This document shows, piece after piece, positions 12,288 through 19,462 of a stretch of DNA of 64,000 bases (position 1 is the first letter of the stretch; every line of letters begins with the position of its first letter). This stretch comes from Pseudomonas botevensis (lineage in GTDB: Bacteria > Pseudomonadota > Gammaproteobacteria > Pseudomonadales > Pseudomonadaceae): NCBI RefSeq assembly GCF_019145475.1, contig NZ_JAHTKI010000009.1, forward strand, positions 1 to 64,000, given 5' to 3'. The notes under the pieces were generated by a model that did no database searches, was not told the origin of the DNA, and saw only the letters and a program-made list of their open reading frames with translations. A program made the translations under genes and the position numbers.

Positions 12288-12601
12288 GCAAGCGTAGCAG
12301 GCACATTGATATCAGACGGTCACTCGTCGGCCGTCCGCTGGCGGGCACGGCAACTATGCTTGTCTCACACTGCAACAGCTGTCGCGAAATTGGACGCTGG
12401 TGAACATCGCCACTGTCGTAAAGGCGCAGTGATCTTCACGTAACTGCTTGATTGAAAAGCTTATCGGCAAGCTGGCACGCTCCGTGTATTGCTCATCGCA
12501 GACGTTTCGCTTGCCTCCGTTCGCGGCGTGCCGCCAACGGCAGAAACCATAAAAACGATAAGCCACAACAATAAGAAAGCACCGTGCGAGGTTCGACGTT
12601 G

Positions 12602-14182
12602 ATGAAGAGAAAACTCCGATCAGGCATGAGCGCCAGCCTGCTGGCCGTGGCCGCTTGTGTCGCCCTGCATTCCCCCCACAGCCTGGCGGCGCGCGATGCG
12701 CAGACCATCCTCAAGGAAACCTGCCAAGGCTGTCACACCCCGGAAGCCGATAATGCCCTGAGCCGCATCAGCCACCAGCGCAAGACCCCGGAAGGCTGGC
12801 TGATGAGCATCGCCCGCATGCAAACCATGCACGGCCTGCAGATCAGCGACGATGATCGCCGCACCCTGGTCAAATACCTGGCCGATACCCAGGGCCTGGC
12901 GCCGAGCGAAACCGATGGCGTGCGTTACGCGCTGGAGCGGCGGTTGAACACCGTTGAGCAGTTCGACGAGAAAACCGCGCAGATGTGCGGCCGCTGCCAC
13001 TCCGGCGCGCGGGTCGCCCTGCAACGGCGTCCGGCACAGGAATGGGAACGGCTGGTGAATTTCCACCTCGGTCAATGGCCGTCGCTGGAGTATCAGGCCC
13101 TGGCCCGCGACCGCGACTGGTTCGATATCGCCCGCAAGGAGATGGTGCCGCTGCTGGCCAAGCGTTATCCGCTGGACAACCCGGCCTGGCAGAAGTGGCT
13201 GAAAACCGCACCGAAAGCCGACGCGCTGGTCGGTGACTGGAACTTCAGCGGCCACCTGCCGGGCAAGGGCGAACTGGCCGGCAGCATGAACGTCAGCGCC
13301 GACGGCAGCGACACCTTCAAGGTCAGCGTCAAGGGCCAGTACGCCGATGGTAGCCCGTTCAATGGCGACGGCAGCGCGATCCTCTACAGCGGTTACGAAT
13401 GGCGCGGCAACGTGACCATCGACGGCGTGACCATGCGTCAGGTGTTCGCTGCGCAGGGCAATGCCATGCAGGGCCGGATGTTCGAGGCCGAGCATGACGA
13501 GCGCGGTCTGGACTTCGTGGCAGCCAAGCAGGGTTCGCAACGCTTGCTGGCGGTACAGCCGGGTTACGTGAAGGCCGGCAGTGAAACCGAAGTGACCCTG
13601 ATCGGCAGCGGTTTGAGCGGCAAGCCGAACTTTGGCAAAGGCGTGGAAGTGGTCGAAGTGCTCGAGCAAAGTGCCGGGCAGATCAAGGTCAAGGTCAAGA
13701 CGGCGGCCAATGCCCCGGCCGGGTTGCGCGCGGTCAGCGTCGGCAGCCTGAAAGGCCCGAGCCTGTCGGTGTACAGCCAGATCGACTCGGTCAAGGTCGT
13801 GCCGGAGTTTTCCGTGGCGCGGATCGGCGAGGGCGGCGGCTCGACGCCGAAAGTCCAGGGCCGTTTCGACGCGGAAGCCTGGGGCAAGGGCGCCGACGGC
13901 AAGCCGTATCGCATTGGTGTGTTCCCGGCGCAGTGGAAGGTCGAAGCCTTCGACGAGCGTGCCAGGGAGGACGAGGACGTCAAGTTCGCCGGCACCATGC
14001 AGGCCGATGCGGGCGTGTTCACGCCGGGTGATGCCGGGCCGAATCCGGCACGCAAGATGTCCACCAACAATGCCGGCAACCTCAAGGTGATAGCCGCCGT
14101 CGACGACGCAGGGAAATCCCTCACCGGCGAAGGGCACATGATCGTCACCGTGCAACGCTGGAACAATCCACCCATTCCGTAA
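12602..14182 (+). CDS. qhpA: Quinohemoprotein amine dehydrogenase alpha subunit (diheme cytochrome c)
   Basis: A 526-residue secreted subunit. A Sec signal peptide (about 1-30, ending HSLAA) precedes the cytochrome domain, which carries two heme c sites: CQGCH at 41-45 and CGRCH at 129-133. The remainder would form the beta-barrel and Ig-like domains known in the family. The hemes carry electrons from the quinone in the gamma subunit to periplasmic acceptors. The ATG at 12602 was chosen over an in-frame GTG at 12584 because GAGG lies ten bases upstream and the signal peptide starts with a basic MKRK. It is followed by qhpD, qhpC and qhpB on the same strand. Confidence 0.93.
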   Translation: MKRKLRSGMSASLLAVAACVALHSPHSLAARDAQTILKETCQGCHTPEADNALSRISHQRKTPEGWLMSIARMQTMHGLQISDDDRRTLVKYLADTQGLAPSETDGVRYALERRLNTVEQFDEKTAQMCGRCHSGARVALQRRPAQEWERLVNFHLGQWPSLEYQALARDRDWFDIARKEMVPLLAKRYPLDNPAWQKWLKTAPKADALVGDWNFSGHLPGKGELAGSMNVSADGSDTFKVSVKGQYADGSPFNGDGSAILYSGYEWRGNVTIDGVTMRQVFAAQGNAMQGRMFEAEHDERGLDFVAAKQGSQRLLAVQPGYVKAGSETEVTLIGSGLSGKPNFGKGVEVVEVLEQSAGQIKVKVKTAANAPAGLRAVSVGSLKGPSLSVYSQIDSVKVVPEFSVARIGEGGGSTPKVQGRFDAEAWGKGADGKPYRIGVFPAQWKVEAFDERAREDEDVKFAGTMQADAGVFTPGDAGPNPARKMSTNNAGNLKVIAAVDDAGKSLTGEGHMIVTVQRWNNPPIP

Positions 14183-14261
14183 GGCTGGCCAGAAACGCTT
14201 CCAGACACTTTTCGGAATGACCGCAGGCCTCGCCGGACGGGGCTTGCACAGGAGGTTTGCA

Positions 14262-15692
14262 ATGGGCGCTATCTTGAATCTGGTCGAGCGTAACCTGCAC
14301 GAAGTGCAGGTTGACGCCGACCGCATGCTGTTCCACATCCCCAGCAGTTCGCTGTTCGCCAGCGATGAGCTGACCGGCACCATCATCGACGCGTTGCGCG
14401 GCCCCGGTTGTTCTTCGGAAGACCTGATCCAGCGCCTTGGCGCGCGTTTCAACGGCGAGGAAATCCACGAGACCCTGCGCGAGCTGATCTCGCTGGAGCT
14501 GGTCAGCGACGGCTCGCCACTGACCCCGGACATCGCTGTCAAACGGGTCGAGCGCACGGCGATCAACACCGTGGTGCTCAACGTCAACACCGGTTGCAAC
14601 CTGAGCTGCACCTACTGCTACAAGGAAGACCTCGACAAGCCGTCCGCCGGCAAGAAAATGGACGTCGAGACCGCCATCGCCTCCGTGGAAATGCTGCTGC
14701 GCGAGTCCCCCGACGAAGAGCGTTTCACCGTGGTGTTTTTCGGCGGCGAACCGCTGAGCAACCGCAAGCTGATCGAGTACATGGTCGACTACTGCGAAAA
14801 GCGCTTTGCCGAGGCGGGCAAGTTCGTCGAATTCGTCATGACCACCAATGCCACGCTGCTCACCGAAGAAACCGTGGACTATCTCAATGCCCACCGCTTC
14901 GGTTTGTCGGTGAGCATCGACGGGCCGAAAACCGTGCACGACCGCAACCGTATCACCGTGGGCGGGCAGGGCACCTATGACGTGGTGCGGCGCAAGGCCG
15001 AGATGCTGCTGTCGCGCTACAACAGCCGTCCGGTCGGCGCGCGGGTGACGTTGACCACGGGTGTCACCGATGTCGAAACCATCTGGGATCACCTGTTCAA
15101 CGAGTTGAAGTTCGCGGAAGTCGGGTTTGCCCCGGTGACCTCCGGCGACATCAGCAGCTTCAACCTGAGCAACGCCGAACTGGTCGAGGTGTTCGCCAGC
15201 ATGAAGCGCCTCGGTCGACGTTATCTGGACGCGGCACTGGAACATCGCAACATCGGCTTTTCCAACCTGCACCAGTTGATCACCGATATCCACGAAGGCC
15301 ACAAAAAGGCGCTGCCGTGCGGCGCGGGATTGAAGATGCTGGCGGTCGATCACAAGGGCGAGCTGAACCTGTGCCACCGCTTCACCGGCTCATCGCTGCC
15401 GACCTTCGGCAACGTCCACAACGGTGTGAAACAGGTTGAACTGAACGACTTCCTGTCCCAGCGCCTGGATCGCACCAACACCGGTTGCCACGACTGCCGG
15501 ATCCGCAACCTGTGTTCCGGCGGCTGCTACCACGAGAGCTACGCCCGTTACGGCGATGCGGCGCACCCGACGTATCACTATTGCGAACTGATGCGTGACT
15601 GGGTCGATTTCGGCATCGAGGTCTACACCCGGATCATGGCCAATAACCCTGCGTTCATCAGCAGCTACATCACTCCGCGCAAGGCTCACTGA
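14262..15692 (+). CDS. qhpD: Radical SAM/SPASM thioether-forming enzyme for QHNDH gamma subunit (QhpD)
   Basis: A 476-residue radical SAM enzyme. The cluster motif CNLSCTYC has cysteines at 112, 116 and 119. The C-terminal SPASM-like region is Cys-rich, with [14 protein letters not shown] among its motifs. QhpD forms the three Cys-to-Asp/Glu thioether crosslinks in the gamma peptide before export. The first 90 residues resemble a peptide-recognition (PqqD-like) region. The ATG at 14262 follows a strong AGGAGG site; an upstream in-frame extension lacks one. It is 79 bases after qhpA and one base before qhpC, so coupling with its substrate gene is expected. Confidence 0.93.
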
Positions 15693-15693
15693 T

Positions 15694-16017
15694 ATGAAAC
15701 ATCTCAAGGCAATCAATAACAAAGCGTTGAAGCTGGATCAGGCGGCGGACGAGAACCGCATTGAAGAGGTGGTGGCGATGAGCTCAGTCGCCGGTTGCGC
15801 CTCGACCACCGATCCGGGCTGGGAAATCGATGCGTTCGGCGGGGTGTCGTCGCTGTGCCAGCCGATGGAGGCGGACCTGTATGGCTGCTCCGACCCGTGC
15901 TGGTGGCCGGCCCAGGTGCCGGACATGATGAGCACCTACCCGGACTGGAACAAGGATGCCCAGGCGTCCAACGAAAACTGGCGCAACCTCGGCACGGTCT
16001 TCCCGAAAGACAAATGA
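15694..16017 (+). CDS. qhpC: Quinohemoprotein amine dehydrogenase gamma subunit precursor (CTQ-bearing)
   Basis: A 107-residue precursor that carries the catalytic cysteine tryptophylquinone. A 28-residue leader ([10 protein letters not shown]...RIEEVVA) gives a mature chain of 79 residues. In mature numbering every modified residue of the family falls in place: thioether pairs Cys7-Glu16, Cys27-Asp33 and Cys41-Asp49, and the quinone pair Cys37-Trp43 within YGCSDPCWW. The leader has no hydrophobic signal, in keeping with a dedicated exporter. The ATG at 15694 lies one base after the qhpD stop. Upstream in-frame codons were rejected because they lie inside qhpD and would break the 28-residue leader. 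Confidence 0.95.
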
Positions 16018-16057
16018 TGCCCTTGAACAAGCAGCGTACAAGAAGAAGGATTCCAGC

Positions 16058-17179
16058 ATGCCTAGCATCAACACAGCCTGCGGCCTGGCCGCGTTCGCCG
16101 CGCTGAGCGTTTGTTCGCTCAGTGTTCTGGCCGATGAGAACACCGCGCTGCAGGATGGTCACGAATACATGTTGACCACCAATTACCCGAACAACCTGAA
16201 CGTCATCGACCTGGCCACCGACAGCCTGTACAAGACCTGCAAGATGCCCGACGCTTTCGGTCCCGGGACCGTGCAGCTGTCGCCGGATCGCAAGACCGCC
16301 TATGTGCTGAACAACCATTACGCCGACGTTTACGGTGTCGAACTGGACAACTGCAAACAGGTGTTCCACGCCAGCATCACCCAGCAACCGGGGGAAAAGG
16401 CGCGGTCGATGTTCGCCTTCACGGTCAGCCATGACGGCAAGGAAATCTACACCGTCGCCAACCCGACGCTGATGCTCAACGACCGCTACGAGGTCAGGCA
16501 GCCGCGCCTGGATGTCTACGCCGCTGACGCCGGGATGAACGCCAAACCGGTGCGCAGCTTTGCGGCGCCACGGCAGTTGACGATCATGCAGAGTGGCGAT
16601 GACGGCACGTTGTATGTGGCCGGTGCCGATGTGTACAAGGTCGATGTGAAAACCGGCAAATTCGATGTGCTGATCCCCAGCCGTCACTGGAAGCGCCCCA
16701 ACTACAGCGCACCGGACGTGCTCTACGTGTGGAACCAGCAGACTTATCGCCACGACTTCTCGCTGCTCTACACCGCTGCCAAGTTCAAGGACAAGAAGCA
16801 GGACCCGGCCACCGCCGAATACCTGTACGGCCTGTTCAGCATCGACCTGAAGACCGGCAAGACCGAAACCACCGACTTCGGCCCGCTGACGGAAATCTAC
16901 TTCAGCGGCATGCGCTCGCCGAAGGACCCGAACCTGATGTTCGGCGTGCTCAACCGCCTGGCCAAGTACGACATCAAGCAGAAGAAGCTGATTCAGGCGG
17001 CGACCCTGGATCATTCCTACTACTGCATTTCGTTCAACAAGGAGGGCACCAAGATCTACCTGGCCGGGACGTTCAACGATGTGGCGATCTTCGATGCGGA
17101 GACGATGAAACAGACCGGCAGTATCAAGTTGCCGGGTGGGGATATGGCGATTACCACGGCGCAGGTTTTCGTCCGGTAA
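16058..17179 (+). CDS. qhpB: Quinohemoprotein amine dehydrogenase beta subunit
   Basis: A 373-residue secreted protein with a Sec signal peptide (about 1-25, ending SVLA) and repeated blade-like motifs such as VIDLATDSLYKTC and LSPDRKTAYV. It matches the seven-bladed propeller subunit of QHNDH that helps form the amine pocket above the quinone. The ATG at 16058 follows an AGAAGAAGGA site. In-frame upstream sequence overlaps qhpC and lacks a signal peptide start, so it was rejected. It is last in the qhpADCB group and ends before a REP-like palindrome. Confidence 0.92.
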   Translation: MPSINTACGLAAFAALSVCSLSVLADENTALQDGHEYMLTTNYPNNLNVIDLATDSLYKTCKMPDAFGPGTVQLSPDRKTAYVLNNHYADVYGVELDNCKQVFHASITQQPGEKARSMFAFTVSHDGKEIYTVANPTLMLNDRYEVRQPRLDVYAADAGMNAKPVRSFAAPRQLTIMQSGDDGTLYVAGADVYKVDVKTGKFDVLIPSRHWKRPNYSAPDVLYVWNQQTYRHDFSLLYTAAKFKDKKQDPATAEYLYGLFSIDLKTGKTETTDFGPLTEIYFSGMRSPKDPNLMFGVLNRLAKYDIKQKKLIQAATLDHSYYCISFNKEGTKIYLAGTFNDVAIFDAETMKQTGSIKLPGGDMAITTAQVFVR

Positions 17180-17870: not shown

Positions 17871-18359
17871 ATGAAACCAGTACCTAACAGCTTTGAACGT
17901 AAAATCACCCTAAAGTCGCCGCGTTCCCACGTCTGGCGCGCCCTGGTCGATGCGGAGGCGTTCGGCCAGTGGTTTGGTGTTGCGCTGGAGGGCCGGCGGT
18001 TCATCGCCGGTGAGTGGACGCAGGGGCAGGTCACGTATCGCGGTTATGAGCATGTGTTATGGAATGTGTTGGTGGAGCGCGTCGAACCGCAGACCTTGTT
18101 TTCCTTCCGCTGGCATCCCTACGCGGTGAATCCGAAGATCGATTACTCCACGGAGCCGACCACGCTGGTCAAGTTCGAGCTGGAGGATTACGAGGGCGGC
18201 ACCTTGCTGAAAGTCTCCGAGACAGGCTTTGCGCACATCCCCGATTTTCGCCAGAAAGAGGCGTACTACATGGACAGTCGCGGCTGGGAGGAGCAAATGA
18301 GCCGGCTCGAGCAATTCCTCATTGAAAGTGATCGGGCCCGGGAGCGTGAGGGTGGCTGA
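17871..18359 (+). CDS. SRPBCC / AHSA1-type domain protein
   Basis: A 162-residue soluble protein built of one START-like SRPBCC domain, shown by SPRSHVWRALVDAEAFGQWFG at the N terminus and the late GWEEQMSRLEQFL helix. Family members bind hydrophobic ligands or act as stress-linked proteins; the ligand is unknown. The ATG at 17871 has a near-perfect AGGAGGTGA site. The 3' end overlaps the start of the kinase gene, so the two are translated together. Confidence 0.85.
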   Translation: MKPVPNSFERKITLKSPRSHVWRALVDAEAFGQWFGVALEGRRFIAGEWTQGQVTYRGYEHVLWNVLVERVEPQTLFSFRWHPYAVNPKIDYSTEPTTLVKFELEDYEGGTLLKVSETGFAHIPDFRQKEAYYMDSRGWEEQMSRLEQFLIESDRAREREGG

Positions 18360-19167
18360 CGGCGACCTGTTCGAGCCGTGGCTGCAACGCTGGGCGCTGG
18401 TGCCGGACGGCGCGCCGATCATCACCCCGGGCAGCCGTCTGTTGCCGGTGCGCCGGGGCGATACCCCGGCGATGCTCAAGATCGCGGTGGATGCCGAGGA
18501 GAAGTACGGCAATCTGCTGGTGACCTGGTGGGATGGAGACGGCGCCGCCTGGGTGCTGGCCCAGCATCAGGACGGGTTGCTGCTGGAGCGGGCCATGGGC
18601 CGGCGTTCGTTGATGCACATGGCGCTCAATGGCGAGGACGACACGGCCAGCCGGATCCTGTGTACGGCGCTGGCGCGCTTGCATGCGCCGGGTCCAACGC
18701 CGCCACCGCCGCTGGTGGAGCTGGCGCCATGGTTCGCTTCGCTGCGAATGGCTGCCGCCGAACAGGGTGGGGTGTATAGGCGCAGCTTGCAGACCGCCGA
18801 AGCCTTGCTCGCCGAACCTCAGGAGGTTGTGGTGCTGCACGGCGACATGCACCACGACAATGTGCTGGACTTCGGCCCGCGTGGCTGGCTGGCCATCGAC
18901 CCCAAACGGGTACGCGGTGAGCGCGGCTATGACTACGCCAACCTGATCTGCAACCCCGAGTTGCCCACCGCCACCGATCCCGAACGCTTTCGGCGACAGG
19001 TCGAGGTCATCGGCGAAGCGGCAGGGCTGGAGCGCCGACGTTTGCTGCAATGGGTACTGGCGTTCGCGGGACTGTCTGCTGCGTGGTTCCTGGAGGATGA
19101 CGAGCAAACGGCCGCTGCGGGGCAACTGAAAGTCGCACAGCTCGCGGCTTGCGCGCTCGATGCCTGA
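18346..19167 (+). CDS. Aminoglycoside 6-phosphotransferase / streptomycin kinase family protein
   Basis: About 273 residues with the APH(6)/hydroxyurea kinase pattern. The catalytic loop is VVLHGDMHHDNVL, and the metal-binding stretch is AIDPKRVRGERGYDYANLI. Family members phosphorylate streptomycin or related small molecules in the cytoplasm. A chromosomal copy in a pseudomonad may confer low-level resistance or have a metabolic substrate; neither is shown. Start choice is weak: GTG at 18346 is used because homologous N termini begin close to FEPWLQRW, but TTG at 18322 and GTG at 18328 or 18352 are also in frame. It overlaps the preceding gene by about 14 bases. Confidence 0.78.
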   Translation: MRVADGDLFEPWLQRWALVPDGAPIITPGSRLLPVRRGDTPAMLKIAVDAEEKYGNLLVTWWDGDGAAWVLAQHQDGLLLERAMGRRSLMHMALNGEDDTASRILCTALARLHAPGPTPPPPLVELAPWFASLRMAAAEQGGVYRRSLQTAEALLAEPQEVVVLHGDMHHDNVLDFGPRGWLAIDPKRVRGERGYDYANLICNPELPTATDPERFRRQVEVIGEAAGLERRRLLQWVLAFAGLSAAWFLEDDEQTAAAGQLKVAQLAACALDA

Positions 19168-19269
19168 CAGGGCTAAGGGTTTTCGGAAGGGGCGCTATGG
19201 CGAATGTCTTACACGCGATGGTAGCTATGTCGACTATTGCCGATTGGATCCGAAGCGTAATCTAGCCTC

Positions 19270-19388
19270 ATCAACTGAAGCACAGGGAGTGTTTCAGGAT
19301 CACGGATGATCGACCAATGCAAGGATCGCTGCCGACAGGGAGTCGATATGGTCTTGGGAAAAACCCGCTTCGGCGGGTTTTTTTTCGC
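19270..19388 (+). ncRNA. rsmX: RsmX-like small regulatory RNA (RsmA/RsmE sponge)
   Basis: A stretch of about 115 bases holds six GGA motifs, several shown in hairpin loops. GAAGCAC-AGGGA-GTGTTTC is at 19277-19295, GATCA-CGGA-TGATC at 19298-19311 and CGAC-AGGGA-GTCG at 19333-19345. The last is nested in an outer GACCA/TGGTC stem (19312-19316 with 19349-19353). A rho-independent terminator ends it. A possible promoter is TTGCCG (19238-19243) with TAATCT (19259-19264). CTTACA at 19208-19213 resembles half of the GacA site. The layout matches the Gac/Rsm sRNAs, which titrate RsmA-type translational repressors; its size and 5' hairpin fit RsmX best. The start is estimated. Confidence 0.75.
19359..19385 (+). 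terminator. Terminator of the RsmX-like RNA
   Basis: A CCCGC-TTCG-GCGGG stem, extended by A:T pairs on both sides, is followed by eight or nine T residues. It is a textbook intrinsic terminator. Confidence 0.9.
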
Positions 19389-19462
19389 CTGTAGGAAAGT
19401 GCCGTCTCCAGCCGTGTTTGCAGATCGTCCCCCGCGCGGAGCGGGGGAACGATCAAAGCGGA

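Follow-up and report, generated by a model that had tools for sequence, protein, structure and literature searches.

Rfam identity, gene neighbourhood and Gac/Rsm genes

Rfam scanning of the whole window (the 64-kb stretch of Pseudomonas botevensis DNA that was analysed) showed a match to rsmX (RF02144) at positions 19270-19383 of the plus strand, scoring 112.3 bits (gathering score 56; E-value 1.8e-20). The alignment was full-length (model positions 1-114 of 114), the score was twice the gathering score, and 8 positions (4 pairs) of the window RNA were flagged as non-standard. No other Rfam family reached its gathering level within the window. With two further T residues past the match, the rsmX small RNA gene was placed at 19270-19385 (plus strand), and the RNA 5' end most likely lies near 19270. 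RsmX is a known Pseudomonas small RNA that is thought to mop up the translation repressors RsmA/RsmE under active GacS/GacA signalling, and its covariance model reportedly originates from Moll et al. 2010.

The initial annotation had proposed an RsmX-like Gac/Rsm small RNA adjoining acnA and had named the Rfam RsmX model as the check. The check was passed at full model length, and the acnA neighbour, the upstream box and the Gac/Rsm genes of the genome agree with the proposal. The covariance-model match is the decisive test, GGA counts are weaker evidence, and the initial observation is confirmed. The proposed extent of 19208-19388 covers rsmX, but its start cuts a GacA-type box that begins at 19196 and precedes the likely RNA start at about 19270. 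RsmY (RF00195) was rejected as the identity of 19270-19383, as it scored 25.6 bits against a cut-off of 57. Matches to istR, isrB and isrK were each under their own gathering score, the istR and isrB alignments resting on the terminator hairpin. A search for similar DNA among phage records found none. The locus is an ordinary rsmX orthologue; the gene is already known and no new principle is involved.

Upstream of rsmX on the plus strand lie an APH(6)-like kinase gene (Pfam APH_6_hur) and an AHSA1-domain gene, and acnA lies downstream in convergent orientation. The acnA end was found 74-149 bases past the rsmX match in 14 of the 31 sampled rsmX loci (flanks of 1.5 kb or less). The AHSA1-domain gene was 5' of rsmX in all 14 of these acnA-linked loci, and the kinase was not found in five of them; at locus L027 the best kinase alignment covered the last 61 residues only. 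A survey of acnA loci from named genomes (26 of 80 fetched loci scanned, flanks up to 3.5 kb) showed rsmX near acnA in one of 20 Pseudomonas loci (L061) and in none of six others, with a short view at L069, where the sequence stops 226 bases past acnA. The adjacency to acnA, seen in 14/31 rsmX loci and 1/20 Pseudomonas acnA loci, thus characterises a lineage, and nothing pointed to a functional link between rsmX and acnA.

Some further features of the neighbourhood were recorded. The kinase of the window (18322-19167) matched four NCBIfam APH(6) models, in every case under the cut-off, and the kinase at L061 was matched only in pieces. Just past the acnA stop, at 19423-19454, an almost perfect inverted repeat that lacks a T run was read by eye; it is perhaps the acnA terminator. 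A quinohemoprotein amine dehydrogenase cluster occupies 12584-17179, where the alpha subunit, the radical SAM maturase and the beta subunit pass NCBIfam equivalog cut-offs.

The window copy was the only rsmX over the cut-off in its own genome. RsmY was found at G000:C11:706099-706217 (124 bits) and RsmZ (RF00166) at G000:C5:84419-84548 (131.8 bits), the latter being the sole RsmZ place at E up to 0.001. The genome contained three CsrA/RsmA-family genes. A single gene passed NF007018 (model labelled PRK09483.1), which we take to be the UvrY/GacA model, with 316 bits (cut-off 280), and this gene is probably GacA. The same cut-off was passed by one of 14 control genomes. All parts of the Gac/Rsm cascade that were searched for (a set without GacS, RetS and LadS) are present.

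Further Rsm RNAs were sought in the genome with the rsmX model at E up to 10, and the other 33 places scored 32.5 bits or less, under the cut-off, the best of them being RsmY itself. At this loose limit the model also matched in 11 of the 14 control genomes, with none over the cut-off, so scores that low mean little. Five of the remaining 32 places (L003, L004, L005, L007 and L008) were read and contained 0-4 GGA motifs and, by eye, ordinary terminator hairpins.

Promoter region and GacA-type box

The GacA box is a palindrome, TGTAAG-N6-CTTACA. A GacA-type upstream activating sequence, TATGGCGAATGTCTTACA, was located at 19196-19213 (plus strand), with the right half CTTACA intact and the left half diverged. 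A CTTACAC half-site (one mismatch or fewer) starting at -63 to -60 from the model start was present in 30 of the 31 sampled rsmX loci, with L022 as the exception lacking one in register, and shuffled upstream regions gave an expectation of 0.195 half-sites at -64 to -60. The window box is in register with these 30 loci. It also resembles the GacA box (UAS) of P. brassicacearum, which is TATAGCGAAACGCTTACA in the available text of PMC7911923.

Fit to the palindrome was 8/12 for the window box and 12/12 for the rsmY site of the same genome, while no evident GacA palindrome was seen within 110 bases upstream of rsmZ (L016; best 7/12). A window scan for the palindrome with three mismatches or fewer did not return the rsmX site. 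Genome-wide, the box pattern with one mismatch or fewer occurred at six places against seven for the reversed control, so that it is uninformative outside the known site.

Between the box and the RNA, a putative GATTGGATCC promoter element was found at 19242-19251 (plus strand); GATTGG stands at -28 in 16 of the 31 sampled rsmX loci. A probable -10 element, TAATCT, was read from the sequence at 19258-19263 (plus strand), six bases 5' of the model start. The upstream regions of rsmX and rsmY in this genome both carry GATTGGATCC followed by TAATCTA. A simple promoter/terminator scanner reported neither a promoter nor a terminator at the locus, so the assignment of both depends on sequence reading and comparison. 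The left half of the box reads TATGGC, compared with TATAGC elsewhere, and this form is common to 15 of the 31 loci. From the diverged box and the GATTGGATCC element upstream of the -10, also found at rsmY, it could be argued that a second regulator acts on rsmX and rsmY via GATTGGATCC and that rsmX is less bound to GacA than elsewhere; this is an outside chance.

The diverged half-box also bears on whether the locus is a relic, an rsmX that has fallen silent or decayed and no longer functions, and the presence of RsmY and RsmZ in the genome would suit that reading as well. A relic is very improbable, as the RNA fits the model end to end, terminator included, and is the only rsmX of the genome over the cut-off. 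The TATGGC form, being common to 15/31 loci, points to conservation in the lineage and not to fresh decay.

It is more improbable still that the hairpins form the 3' untranslated region of the upstream kinase mRNA and not an independent small RNA. The two are on the same strand, with 102 bases from the kinase stop (19167) to the RNA start (19270), but the box and the -10 element sit within this interval, and rsmX with its upstream box is kept in the five acnA-linked loci where the kinase was not found. An independently transcribed rsmX remains the preferred reading.

GGA motifs, fold and covariation

Six GGA motifs, the number given by the initial annotation, were all located within 19270-19383 (at 19286, 19297, 19304, 19323, 19339 and 19357). 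The minimum-energy fold contained hairpin 1 (19275-19297, plus strand), a 9 bp stem with an AGGGA loop (19284-19288), and hairpin 2 (19298-19311, plus strand), a GAUCA/UGAUC stem with a CGGA loop (19303-19306). Hairpin 3 (19332-19346, plus strand) carries the third loop motif, AGGGA (19337-19341), which the Rfam consensus fold leaves as a loop, whereas ViennaRNA prefers another pairing in which it is partly paired. The RNA thus has several GGA motifs with some exposed in loops, as in RsmX, and the earlier claim of three clear loops stands for the two in the minimum-energy fold and, for the third, in the Rfam fold only. The intrinsic terminator, also claimed earlier, is plain at 19361-19385 (plus strand), where the sequence and the folds show a GC-rich hairpin with a UUCG loop and a U run, the Rho-independent terminator expected of RsmX.

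The fold was far more stable than those of dinucleotide shuffles (z -4.38), with 0/200 and 0/1000 shuffles as stable. Six or more GGA motifs were found in 151 of 1000 dinucleotide shuffles, and two or more hairpin-loop GGA motifs (the observed number being two) in 98 of 1000. When the window was divided into overlapping 114-base stretches, at least six GGA motifs occurred in 16 of 6389 on the plus strand and in one of 6389 on the minus strand. The GGA number alone is weaker evidence and not decisive.

Covariation was analysed in an alignment of 31 sequences (27 distinct), made up of the window copy and a single fetched locus from each of 30 top-scoring genomes; these loci were chosen by model score, a choice that favours the structure. 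In the 27 distinct homologues, 94.4% of 967 cells were paired under the Rfam structure, and both sides had changed in 45 cells and in 9 of the 36 pairs. The shuffle control gave a mean of 6.6 pairs changed on both sides (nine were reached in 13/500) and a mean of 15.0 cells (45 were reached in 0/500). In slid-structure controls the share of paired cells did not exceed 45.9%, and two-sided changes were seen in no more than 5 pairs and 14 cells.

The contribution of each helix among the 27 distinct sequences was uneven. Hairpin 1 had 95.4% of cells paired and changes on both sides in 7 of its 9 pairs, contributing 7 of the 9 covarying pairs. Hairpin 2 had 99.1% of cells paired over four Rfam pairs, three of them invariant; hairpin 3 had 89.6% of cells paired, with the outermost pair formed in just 13/27; and the terminator had 100% of cells paired, with 7 of 8 pairs invariant. 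There is almost no variation in helices 2 and 6 or in most of helix 3, which therefore reveal little about pairing. Overall, the fold is conserved with compensatory changes, as expected of an RsmX RNA. A short coding gene with an incidental RNA match is hardly credible, for although mechanical ORFs of 25-85 amino acids overlap the region on both strands, homologue changes preserve base pairs, single-base alignment gaps would break the frames, and the covariance match is full length.

Proposed function and distribution in the genus

The locus is almost certainly rsmX, best read as a decoy RNA under GacA control whose GGA hairpins would sequester RsmA/RsmE. Its transcription, its dependence on GacA, its binding of proteins and its action on targets are all predicted here from homologues that have been characterised. 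Phosphorylated GacA, or a downstream factor, would act at the box at 19196-19213 and switch on the promoter with the -10 element at 19258-19263. The transcript, about 115 nt long, would run from near 19270 to the terminator near 19385. By imitating sites in mRNA leaders, its GGA hairpin loops and linkers may bind proteins of the RsmA/RsmE type, and target mRNAs would as a result be freed for translation. The available portions of PMC7366521 and PMC2375449 describe this scheme for homologues, in which rsmX is activated by GacA and its RNA sequesters RsmA/RsmE, so that repressed mRNAs are released, and those of PMC7911923 report exclusive GacA dependence for rsmX-1 and rsmX-2 of P. brassicacearum. 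RsmX examples named in papers include RsmX of P. protegens CHA0, rsmX-1/rsmX-2 of P. brassicacearum and RsmX1-5 of P. syringae.

The window copy shares with RsmX the full-length covariance match, the size, the GGA hairpins, the terminator and a GacA-type box at the same distance as in the sampled rsmX loci. It differs in the TATGGC left half of its box, in place of TATAGC, in its position next to acnA, found in 14/31 of those loci, and in being a single copy, whereas some others have tandem or many copies (also in the accessible text of PMC7911923). RsmY shares the proposed mechanism and, in this genome, the GATTGGATCC and TAATCTA elements, but its model scored low at the window locus and its own gene lies on contig C11. 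RsmZ likewise shares the proposed function in the Gac/Rsm cascade, but its sole place in the genome, on contig C5, is not the window locus.

Across the genus, rsmX was over the cut-off in 116 of 199 sampled genomes (own genome included). A match at E up to 0.001 was found in 171 of the 199 and in none of the 14 control genomes, in a survey run with stricter filters by which some weak matches were lost. A tandem second rsmX was present in 8 of the 31 sampled loci (L017-L021, L025, L031 and L043), at 226-314 nt from start to start; within 1.5 kb of the window copy no second rsmX was found. In one relative (genome G148, loci L141-L144), eight rsmX copies passed the cut-off with 88.3-100.3 bits; some were clustered, and each had a CTTACAC box upstream and 7-8 GGA motifs, against three CsrA-family genes in the genome.

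These eight copies compare with up to five reported in P. syringae in the part of PMC7911923 at hand, which also describes correlated sRNA and protein numbers in P. syringae. Large Rsm RNA sets are already known, as the available text of PMC7366521 lists RsmZ1-7, RsmY1-2 and one RsmA in Azotobacter vinelandii. A search of the accessible literature for 'rsmX6' found no paper, which is no proof that such rsmX expansions are unreported.

With this finding, RsmX joins the other Gac/Rsm genes of the genome: RsmY, RsmZ, three CsrA-family genes and a probable GacA. In related strains, the Gac/Rsm cascade controls secondary metabolites and biofilm. The part with some open biology is the rsmX copy number across the genus, with one copy here and eight in one relative.
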